A stretch of DNA of 64,000 bases from Brachyspira hyodysenteriae ATCC 27164 (GTDB taxonomy: Bacteria > Spirochaetota > Brachyspiria > Brachyspirales > Brachyspiraceae): NCBI RefSeq assembly GCF_001676785.2, contig NZ_CP015910.2, positions 1 to 64,000 on the forward strand. The letters run 5' to 3'. The notes beneath the pieces were generated by a model. It saw only the letters and a program-made list of their open reading frames with translations, ran no database searches and had not been told where the DNA came from. Of the stretch, positions 52,605 through 56,962 are shown piece after piece; position 1 is the first letter of the stretch, and the number at the start of each line of letters is the position of its first letter. Made by a program: the position numbers and the translations under genes.

Positions 52605-53024
52605 CTATTTATTTTTTATTATAATATAAAGTCCAAAATGAATTATTAGCGATCCTATAACAATGCTTAGTATATAAGAAATACTATCAGAAAATGGAAG
52701 TTTTATATTGCTTGGTTCATCAGGATCATACCATAAAGGCAATTCATCTCCTACTTTTCTAAATGGATAATAACTTCTTAAAGTAGCATATAATGTTCCA
52801 TGATTATCAGCTTCATAGCTTATTACCATTGTTTTTTCATATCTAGTTTCTCCGGATTCATATACCCTTTTTCTTCTATCGCACTCTTCAACTACTCCTA
52901 CAGTATGAATATAATTTTTTGTATCAATAAAAGAAAACAATCCTGCTACACCATCCAATGTTAAAACTATTCCTGCAAAAACTATTAGTATTTTTCCTAT
53001 AATTGAAATTTTTTTTTTGTTCAT
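52605..53024 (-). CDS. DUF3592-type membrane protein
   Basis: The 139-residue protein has two membrane helices (~10-30 and ~112-135) flanking an extracytoplasmic beta domain with TVGVVEECDRRKRVY, VISYEADNHGTLYA and PLWYDPDEP, the layout of DUF3592. It is about 70% similar by eye to the plus-strand gene at 56543-56962, and the two point toward each other's flank in inverted arrangement. Function unknown. Confidence 0.8.
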   Translation of the reverse strand: MNKKKISIIGKILIVFAGIVLTLDGVAGLFSFIDTKNYIHTVGVVEECDRRKRVYESGETRYEKTMVISYEADNHGTLYATLRSYYPFRKVGDELPLWYDPDEPSNIKLPFSDSISYILSIVIGSLIIHFGLYIIIKNK

Positions 53025-53726: not shown

Positions 53727-54908
53727 TTAACTTGCATTATCTTTTTTAAATATACCTTGAAGTATTAAGGCCAAAGCACCGTCTCCTGTTACATTACATG
53801 CAGTACCAAAACTATCTTGTAATGCAAATATAGCAAGTATCAAAGCTGTACCATCATCATTAAAACCTAAAACTGAAATTATTATTCCTAAAGAAGCAAC
53901 AACAGTTCCTCCAGGTACTCCCGGAGCTCCAACAGCAAATATACCAAGCAATATAACAAATAAAATCATAGTACCAATAGCAGGAAGCTGTCCATATAAT
54001 ATTTTTGATATAGTCATAACAAAGAAAGTTTCTGTAAGTACTGATCCGCATAAGTGTATAGTTGCTCCCATAGGTATTGCAAAGTTTACTATATCTTTAT
54101 CTAATGCATCAGATTTGCTTGCACATTTCAAAGCTACAGGCAAAGTTGCAGCAGATGACATAGTACCTACAGCAGTGAAATAAGCAGGTCCATAATGTTT
54201 AAATACTCTTGCAGGATTTTTCTTTGAAACAATACCAGCTATAGAATATAAAACAGTAAGCCATATAAAATGTCCTACTATTGCTATTATTATAATTATT
54301 AAAAATACAGGCACACTTTTAATTATAGTACCTTCATATGATAAAGTAGCAAAAGTAGTTCCTATATAAAACGGTAATACTGGTACTACTACATTATTTA
54401 CTAGAAATAATATTATATTATTAAGTTCATCTAATAAATTTTCAAAATATTTAGATTTAGTTTTTATAACAGCTACTCCTCCGCATATAGCCAAGAACAA
54501 TGCAGTTATTACAGGAAATATAGGGTTAATATCTAATTTAAATATTATTTCAGGAAGTTCTTTACCGCCTGCAACATTTGAAGCAATATTTAAATTAGGA
54601 ATTATTATATATCCGGCAATAGTAGCAAATAAAGCAGCACCAACTGAAGAGAAATATGCTAAAGCAAGAATAACTCCTAACATCTTATTTGCCTTACTTC
54701 CCATTCTTGTAATAGCAGGGGCAATAAAACCTAATACAATTAATGGAACCATAAATGATATCACTTGATTAAGCACATATTTTATAGATTGTATGACATT
54801 GATAACGGCTTCATTGCAAAACATTCCTATTACAACACCTAAAGCTATACCTAATAGCAGTTTTATTAATAAGTAGTCTTTTTTGGATTTTTGTTCTAGC
54901 TCTTCCAT
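53727..54908 (-). CDS. Dicarboxylate/amino-acid:cation symporter (SLC1/DAACS)
   Basis: A 393-residue transporter of the glutamate/aspartate/serine family. It has about eight membrane helices plus re-entrant loops with the Ser-rich tip MSSAATLPVA, GATIHLCGS and the second hairpin GAPGVPGGTVVASLG. It imports an acidic or small neutral amino acid with Na+ or H+. The Ser-Ser-Ala form of the first hairpin is nearer to SstT/DctA-like members than to GltP, but the substrate is uncertain. A TTG at 54923 is in frame, yet ATG 54908 has the GAGG site and is chosen. Confidence 0.92.
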   Translation of the reverse strand: MEELEQKSKKDYLLIKLLLGIALGVVIGMFCNEAVINVIQSIKYVLNQVISFMVPLIVLGFIAPAITRMGSKANKMLGVILALAYFSSVGAALFATIAGYIIIPNLNIASNVAGGKELPEIIFKLDINPIFPVITALFLAICGGVAVIKTKSKYFENLLDELNNIILFLVNNVVVPVLPFYIGTTFATLSYEGTIIKSVPVFLIIIIIAIVGHFIWLTVLYSIAGIVSKKNPARVFKHYGPAYFTAVGTMSSAATLPVALKCASKSDALDKDIVNFAIPMGATIHLCGSVLTETFFVMTISKILYGQLPAIGTMILFVILLGIFAVGAPGVPGGTVVASLGIIISVLGFNDDGTALILAIFALQDSFGTACNVTGDGALALILQGIFKKDNAS

Positions 54909-55045: not shown

Positions 55046-55074
55046 TTGATAAAAATTATTTTTTCATATATAAT
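55046..55074 (+). promoter_or_regulatory. Promoter of the cobalamin riboswitch transcript
   Basis: TTGATA (55046-55051), exact 17-bp spacer, TATAAT (55069-55074), about 8-15 bp before the aptamer. Confidence 0.8.
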
Positions 55075-55090
55075 ATTATTCTGTTTTTAT

Positions 55091-55200
55091 ATGGGGGGAA
55101 TGAGGGTGAAAGTCCTTCGCTGGCACGCAACCGTAAAGTTTAATTTATTAATACTAAATTAACGAAGTCGGATTACCCGCTAATAAATAATCAGTCGAGT
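55091..55200 (+). ncRNA. Cobalamin riboswitch aptamer without a downstream sense gene
   Basis: Core elements of the cobalamin aptamer are present in order: GGGGGAAT, GGGTGAAAGTCC, the B12-box region CTGGCACGCAACCGTAA, a variable hairpin with AATTTATTAATACTAAATT, and GAAGTCGGATTACCC. A hairpin GAGTGCA/TGCACTC (55197-55232) and an intrinsic terminator (55315-55351) follow. The next feature on this strand is a distant, unrelated gene, while the adjacent gene is on the opposite strand. Confidence 0.85.
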
Positions 55201-55314
55201 GCACTAGATTATATTCTAAACTTGCACTCCTATTATTAATTACTTTAAAAATGATTATAACAATATAAATTTGATTGATCTCTTATACATAAATAAACCA
55301 AATATCTAAAACTA

Positions 55315-55351
55315 GGCAGGAGTTAATTTTTTAATTCCTGCCGTATTTTTT
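55315..55351. terminator. Terminator shared by the riboswitch RNA and the radical-SAM gene
   Basis: GGCAGGAGTTAA and TTAATTCCTGCC pair; followed by a T tract on the plus strand and a shorter one (TAGTTTTAG) on the minus strand. It meets the stop codon of the radical-SAM gene at 55350. Confidence 0.85.
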
Positions 55352-56321
55352 AAACATTATAATTTATACCCTGAATTATATTTTTTTCTTTCATTCTTTT
55401 TGTTATTAGATTTATTATTTCACCTTTTGATTTTTTCCATTTTGGAGCGATTAAACTATCTCCCAAACTATCACCCATTAAACGAGCTATTATAATATCC
55501 GATCTTGTAAAAGAAATTGCATCGCTCATCAAATCTATATAAAAATCTTCATCTAAAGTAGGGAACTCGCAATCTTTATACATATTTTCAAAATAAGATC
55601 CTTTTACTATATCAAGCTGATGAAATTTTACAGCATCAATTTTCAAAGTAGATATATCTTTAACTGTTTTTATCATATCATCTCTGCTTTCCAATTCTAT
55701 TGTTTTTTTGTCGTTATCATTAAATTTTTTAGGCAGTCCGAATATTATATGAGTGCATATTATGATATTATTATAATTATTTTTTATATGATTTACCGTT
55801 TCAGCAAATGATTTGTAATCATGGCTTCTATTAATAAATTTTGAAGTTTCATCATTAGAAGATTGAAGTCCCATTTCAAGCCAAATTTCTTTGCCTAATA
55901 ATTCAGATAAATCACTAAGTTCTTTCAGTACCTCATCTTCAAGCATATCGCTTCTAGCTCCAAACATTAATCCAACGCATTCATCAAAATGAACTAATTT
56001 ATTAGCATATTTTAAAGATTCTTTAGAAGCTAAAGGTGATAATGGAGTGCCTAGCTGAAAATATCCGTAGAATTTTTGATATCTTCCTTTATAATTTTTT
56101 AATCCGTTAATCCATTGATTATTGATATCTTCTTCTGTTACATAAGGAGGTTTATAGCTATTTAAATTGCAGAATCTACATCCGCCTTCATTAACTTTAT
56201 GGGCACAGCCGAAATCTGTGTCTATTGAAATTTTTCCTACTTTCACTCCGAATTTATTTTTTACATAATCAGAAAATGAATAGTAATTTTTATTATTTTG
56301 TTTATTATCTTTGTTTTGCAT
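55350..56321 (-). CDS. Radical-SAM protein, TIGR01212/YhcC family
   Basis: The 323-residue protein has its 4Fe-4S cluster Cys residues in GCAHKVNEGGCRFCNLNSY (the family's wider spacing of C-x7-C-x2-C), the TPLSPLASKE segment, VGLMFGARSD, WLEMGLQSSNDET and the late HQLDIVKGSYFE motif. It should cleave S-adenosylmethionine reductively, but the substrate of this family is unknown. The 3' end meets the terminator of the riboswitch transcript running from the other strand. Confidence 0.92.
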   Translation of the reverse strand: MQNKDNKQNNKNYYSFSDYVKNKFGVKVGKISIDTDFGCAHKVNEGGCRFCNLNSYKPPYVTEEDINNQWINGLKNYKGRYQKFYGYFQLGTPLSPLASKESLKYANKLVHFDECVGLMFGARSDMLEDEVLKELSDLSELLGKEIWLEMGLQSSNDETSKFINRSHDYKSFAETVNHIKNNYNNIIICTHIIFGLPKKFNDNDKKTIELESRDDMIKTVKDISTLKIDAVKFHQLDIVKGSYFENMYKDCEFPTLDEDFYIDLMSDAISFTRSDIIIARLMGDSLGDSLIAPKWKKSKGEIINLITKRMKEKNIIQGINYNV

Positions 56322-56542
56322 ACTTCTTTTAGTATAGCATAAATTTTCAAAACTAAAAGTATTATAATGTATATTGATTTTTAGTTTTTATATGTTAGAA
56401 TCCTGATATAAATTTATGCAGTAAATACATTTTTATGAAGAAAGAATATTTTTAGTTTTTTGATAAATTTATTTCAAAAGATAATGTGTTTATTAAAGCA
56501 ATAACAAAAGTAAAATTATTAAAAAATAGTGTGTGGGTAATA

Positions 56543-56962
56543 ATGAATAGAAAAAAAATTTCAATTATAGAAAAAATATTAATATGTTCTGTAGGAATAG
56601 TTTTAACTTTTGATGGGGTAGTAGGATTCTTTTCTTTTATTAATACAAGAAATTATATTCATACTGTAGGAGTGGTTGAAGAGTTAGATAGAAAAAAAAT
56701 AGTATATAACCCTAGAAAAATTGGATATAAAAAGGTAATGGTAATAAGATATGAAACTGATAATCATGGAACATTATATGCTACTTTAAGAAGTCATTAT
56801 CCATTTAGAAAAGTAGGAGATGAATTGCCTTTATGGTATGATCCTGATGAACCAAAAAATATAAAACTTCCTTTTTCTGATAGTATTTCTTATATATTAA
56901 GCATTGTTATAGGAGTGCTAATAATTTATTTTGGAATTTTTATTGTAAATAAAAATAGATAG
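56543..56962 (+). CDS. DUF3592-type membrane protein, paralogue of 52605-53024
   Basis: The 139-residue protein has two membrane helices and the same extracytoplasmic core as its minus-strand paralogue (NYIHTVGVVEELDRKK, DNHGTLYATLR, PLWYDPDEPKNIKLPFSD). An upstream in-frame ATG at 56486 would add 19 residues that have no equivalent in the paralogue, so ATG 56543 is taken as the start. Function unknown. Confidence 0.8.
   Translation: MNRKKISIIEKILICSVGIVLTFDGVVGFFSFINTRNYIHTVGVVEELDRKKIVYNPRKIGYKKVMVIRYETDNHGTLYATLRSHYPFRKVGDELPLWYDPDEPKNIKLPFSDSISYILSIVIGVLIIYFGIFIVNKNR

Follow-up and report, generated by a model that had tools for sequence, protein, structure and literature searches.

To our knowledge, riboswitches that control a noncoding RNA instead of a gene are known from a few Firmicutes cases only. 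One of them is AspocR of Listeria, a riboswitch-controlled antisense RNA to pocR. In EutX of Enterococcus faecalis and Rli55 of Listeria monocytogenes, an AdoCbl riboswitch is located on a noncoding RNA whose dual hairpin sequesters EutV; with AdoCbl present, the transcript is shortened to end with the aptamer, and the RNA may lie in any orientation (PMC5821096).

The window analysed here covers the initial 64 kb of a contig of 3.04 Mb from one Brachyspira genome (G000). On its + strand, residues 55046–55351 hold a promoter, followed by an AdoCbl-II-type aptamer and then by a strong terminator. The features of this unit and its two neighbours are as follows.

53727–54908, − strand: divergent upstream neighbour, a transporter of the Na+/dicarboxylate symporter family (PF00375)
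55046–55074, + strand: promoter TTGATA-17-TATAAT, with 11/12 consensus matches, conserved in 11/11 orthologs
55084–55186, + strand: cobalamin (AdoCbl-II-type) riboswitch aptamer (RF01689, 32.5 bits, below gathering; covariation over 37 copies)
55187–55212, + strand: P13-like hairpin (AUAAUC-AGU/ACU-A-GAUUAU), from the sequence
55197–55229, + strand: alternative hairpin GAGUGCA (55197–55203):UGCACUC (55223–55229), from the predicted fold, with the same pairing in paralogous leaders
55285–55311, + strand: invariant tail of 27 nt, G-free and mostly unpaired (alignment and folding), the presumed effector of the small RNA
55315–55351, + strand: intrinsic terminator of the small RNA, a hairpin (55315–55342) and then TATTTTTT
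55350–56321, − strand: convergent neighbour outside the unit, an MnmL/YtqA tRNA-modification radical SAM gene (TIGR01212, 222.7 bits)

An earlier, sequence-only reading of this stretch had described a promoter, a B12 aptamer and a terminator without any sense gene, and this was borne out. The promoter hexamers and their spacing recur in the orthologs scanned, the aptamer helices covary, and the terminator hairpin folds with −17.3 kcal/mol (z −6.3). No + strand ORF of at least 50 aa is present from the aptamer to 55620; the nearest one, 55620–55811, is located entirely within the convergent gene, and only at about 56486–56534 does another plausible + strand gene begin. Judged from this anatomy, the unit is probably a stand-alone small RNA gene of ∼270 nt, and the small RNA is presumably made. 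The block of transporter, riboswitch and mnmL is flanked by two similar DUF3592-like membrane proteins in opposite orientation (52605–53024 on the − strand and 56534–56962 on the + strand); a gene similar to this pair is also located upstream of riboswitches in G002, G018 and G020.

At the gathering threshold, Rfam gave no match to the aptamer, neither as AdoCbl-II (RF01689) nor as cobalamin riboswitch (RF00174). At a permissive threshold, AdoCbl-II (RF01689) matches 55084–55186 with an E-value of 8.4e-6, and its score falls short of the gathering cut-off of 36.5 bits. Five Brachyspira copies of the same riboswitch family pass that cut-off, and the aptamer core was found in 22 of the 26 Brachyspira genomes with up to three mismatches allowed. 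Among the 37 Brachyspira copies, both-sided changes occur at 10 of the 14 helix pairs tested and 96% of the cells are paired; covariation as good was obtained in 0/500 shuffles. Since the helices covary over these copies, the alignment identifies the riboswitch as real. The loop of the P13-like hairpin (55196–55202, CGAGUGC) is near-invariant across the family, and L5 is its putative kissing-loop partner; L5–L13 covariation lends this pairing no support, the loop being near-invariant while L5 is GCACGC or GCCCGC. The GAGUGCA:UGCACUC hairpin and the P13 loop are mutually exclusive, and this switching hairpin is kept in most copies.

Most riboswitch copies in the same genomes precede genes. The second copy of G000 (C1:1541458–1541601) is located upstream of three lipoprotein genes and the gene of a 648-aa protein. 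Among NCBIfam models, BtuB and TonB-B12 match this protein best, both below cut-off; the ortholog of this receptor in L031 contains a TonB plug domain. In G001, one copy lies directly upstream of metE (L009, G001:C1:1157318), the only metE of the genus. Because the paralogs precede metE and the lipoprotein/BtuB-like receptor operon, B12 is very probably the ligand of the aptamer class, and the window copy would bind cobalamin as well. The genome of the window contains a B12-dependent MetH-type gene and no metE. Whether the riboswitch precedes a B12 gene in relatives had been named as a check by the sequence-only reading; such an arrangement is found for the paralogs only, in front of B12-uptake genes, and not for the orthologs of the window copy.

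The leaders of the uptake operons and of metE share GAGUGCACU...GCACUCC, then UUUAUU...AAUAAAGGAG. As the GAGUGC:GCACUC and CUCCUUUAUU:AAUAAAGGAG pairings are incompatible, the natural reading of these paralogous leaders would be a standard B12 off-switch on translation. Like them, the orphan copies contain the aptamer core and the GAGUGCACU...GCACUCC switching hairpin. The two kinds differ at the 3′ end: the uptake and metE riboswitches lead into a Shine-Dalgarno sequence and a gene, the orphan copies into the tail and the terminator. The B12-riboswitch operon of G000 (L214:672–4523, equal to G000:C1:1541671–1545522), with its three lipoprotein genes and BtuB-like TonB-dependent receptor, includes two lipoprotein families without any Pfam match over cut-off; the family of the second gene resembles a calycin/streptavidin barrel-like fold in one weak match (E 0.014). 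These lipoproteins may be novel surface B12-binding proteins. Tandem B12-riboswitch lipoprotein units, ∼1.5 kb apart, occur in several species (L022, L028, L030 and L033).

The orphan unit is conserved in 11 of the 26 Brachyspira genomes, in single copy each and at two unrelated loci. At locus 1 (G000, G005, G008 and G022–G025), it lies between the symporter gene and mnmL/ytqA. At locus 2, with gene names read from the sequence, one neighbour is always a Sua5/YciO-family gene; on the other side is a lon-like gene in G007, G009 and G015 and a CobW-like GTPase gene in G014. The mnmL tree groups all carriers in a single supported clade and places losses in G004, G017 and G021; three or four members of this clade have either lost the small RNA or carry it in decayed form, and G004 retains the terminator remnant alone. 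One decaying copy is found in G006 (L066, C3:229761), where the promoter was replaced by unrelated sequence, the aptamer core with most of the aptamer and the terminator are gone, and the tail carries one change. In G007 and G015, a Shine-Dalgarno-like AAGGAGCATTTCA or AAAGGAGGATTTCA from the ancestral leader is present with no gene after it, which suggests that the small RNA arose from a duplicated uptake leader.

The tail CATAAATAAACCAAATATCTAAA marks the orphan kind. In the alignment of the 11 RNAs, the longest invariant run, ATACATAAATAAACCAAATATCTAAAA, is 27 nt in length and lies between the aptamer and the terminator; the runner-up, at 6 nt, is the −10 box. None of 20000 shuffles produced a 27-nt invariant run. 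The branches of the mnmL tree that lead to carriers sum to ∼0.9 substitutions per site; at such divergence, chance would not be expected to leave 27 sites unchanged. The tail has an exact match once each in G000, G005, G007, G008, G009, G014, G015, G022, G023, G024 and G025. In a scan of 84,980 species genomes, a longer exact form was limited to Brachyspira, being also present in B. innocens ATCC 29796 and Brachyspira sp. G79; viral contigs gave no match to the tail. Between the two locus groups, identity is 94% in the tail core, 79% in the promoter, 69% in the aptamer, 50% in the spacer and 45% in the terminator, which is conserved as a hairpin and not as a sequence. The tail is predicted to be unpaired in 10 of the 11 orthologs, with mean probabilities of 0.58–0.84, and to be less so in G005 (0.41). 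G009 has a deletion of the aptamer core (P5/L5); since the promoter, tail and terminator are all retained there, the tail looks like the product of the unit.

We searched for a partner of the tail and for the switch that could govern it. A GU-aware, genus-wide complement search with three patterns identified no target with near-full complementarity. Recurring matches beyond the RNA itself were coding motifs, either the DVWFDSG motif of IleS (L080, L093 and L107) or others not tied to carriers. As the complement searches gave no long target, the tail may pair over a short stretch only, or it may have a protein as its partner. No conserved tail target was found in the B12-uptake operons, and tail duplex energies against the metH locus, the receptor operons and the B12-radical-SAM loci, compared to a 64-kb background, revealed nothing consistent between species. 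We also considered metE and rejected it, because G001, the only genome with metE, lacks the small RNA. When the P13 loop was blocked as a model of B12-dependent exposure, the predicted exposure of the tail shifted little or inconsistently. No conserved expression platform was found, and no early terminator-like site was seen in the orthologs scanned.

Several other explanations of the unit were weighed. The sequence-only reading had proposed that B12 modulates read-through of the shared terminator and thereby yields antisense RNA to mnmL/ytqA, and the convergent layout fits this. As an antiterminator, ACUCCU(G), which starts at 55226, could pair with (C)AGGAGU of the terminator's 5′ arm; of the seven intact copies at the mnmL locus, six show this complementarity over five to seven nt. 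However, it is disrupted in G005 and has no counterpart in the other locus group, and we rejected the antiterminator as not conserved. In G007, G009, G014 and G015 the same RNA faces the Sua5/YciO-family gene; because the opposite gene differs between the loci, antisense RNA to mnmL/ytqA is not the conserved job of the unit. The terminator is strong in every intact copy, with completely different sequences at the two loci, and the invariant tail is left unexplained by read-through. We therefore regard such an antisense device as highly improbable. Coding by the conserved stretch is hardly credible: short frames do exist, of 12 codons from TTG in one group and of 10 codons from ATG in the other, but one 1-nt indel puts the identical nucleotides into different frames, giving different peptides in the two groups, and neither start has a Shine-Dalgarno sequence beside it. 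With no conserved peptide, the micropeptide was rejected.

The sequence-only reading had also suggested a leftover of a lost gene. As a decaying, functionless leader of a lost B12-uptake gene, the unit would account for the Shine-Dalgarno-like sequences without a gene in G007 and G015 and for the reduced copies in G006 and G004. Decay does not fit the 27 invariant nucleotides 3′ of the aptamer, which persist in 11 genomes together with the conserved promoter and terminator, or the tail that outlives its aptamer in G009, and we consider a relic improbable. That the tail serves as a protein-binding sponge, comparable to the EutX dual hairpin for EutV, instead of as a base-pairing seed, is rather unlikely but has more to recommend it: the stretch is invariant and single-stranded, and the complementary target was not found. 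On the other hand, the tail contains no known motif, and being G-free it cannot hold ANTAR loops.

Taking as established at the sequence level the parts of the unit, their conservation, the single copy per genome, the two loci and the retention of the tail after aptamer loss, we favor a riboswitch-headed small RNA that acts in trans through its tail as the likely reading. The promoter would drive an RNA with an adenosylcobalamin-type aptamer at the head and a strong terminator at the end, and its output would be the 27-nt single-stranded tail just 5′ of the terminator. Most likely, the tail would base-pair with at least one mRNA or bind a protein, acting in trans in either case, and thus presumably has a trans target. 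According to B12, the aptamer would set the activity or the amount of the RNA. The choice would be between the P13-like hairpin, its loop docked on L5 with B12 bound, and the competing GAGUGCA:UGCACUC hairpin; our guess is that the RNA is active when B12 is scarce. As no consistent way was found in which the switching hairpin exposes or hides the tail, and no early terminator was seen in the orthologs scanned, B12 control of the small RNA is only likely. More tentatively, and with somewhat less than even confidence, the RNA may be a B12-riboswitch-controlled, trans-acting, base-pairing small RNA of spirochaetes, in which a metabolite aptamer is fused to an antisense seed; it would derive from a duplicated uptake-operon leader and have moved between loci, with the sensor lost but the seed kept in one species. 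Paralogous uptake leader, small RNA, sensorless small RNA and loss would then make up an evolutionary series, illustrating a route from riboswitch to trans regulator. The 27-nt tail would provide a concrete probe for the response of Brachyspira to B12 shortage.

No published report of this Brachyspira RNA was found in the open literature searched. Compared to the Listeria precedents invoked by the sequence-only reading, the orphan riboswitch and the Rli55-type parallel were right in spirit, whereas antisense RNA onto the radical-SAM gene gained no support as a conserved function. Like AspocR, the Brachyspira RNA is a B12 riboswitch transcript that heads toward a gene on the opposite strand. 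Different from AspocR, it is ended by a strong terminator and faces different genes at the two loci; with the convergent gene differing and the terminator conserved, no conserved antisense overlap with a target gene was found. The likeness to EutX and Rli55 is closer. In both cases an AdoCbl aptamer heads a noncoding RNA with its own promoter, and a functional element is located 3′ of the aptamer, which for Brachyspira is read from sequence anatomy and conservation. EutX and Rli55 possess a EutV-sequestering dual hairpin, whereas the Brachyspira RNA possesses an unstructured, G-free stretch of 27 nt; the former are shortened in an AdoCbl-dependent manner, whereas no early terminator is evident in the latter. 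An ANTAR dual-hairpin (EutV-binding) element is absent 3′ of the aptamer, where the conserved element is G-free and predicted to be unpaired. Because the defining dual hairpin is lacking, the Brachyspira RNA is like the EutX/Rli55 class in layout and is not a member of it. It would add a further phylum, and a different effector element, to the known cases of riboswitch-controlled noncoding RNA and, if the base-pairing proposal is true, would represent a second, non-ANTAR design of the riboswitch-small-RNA.
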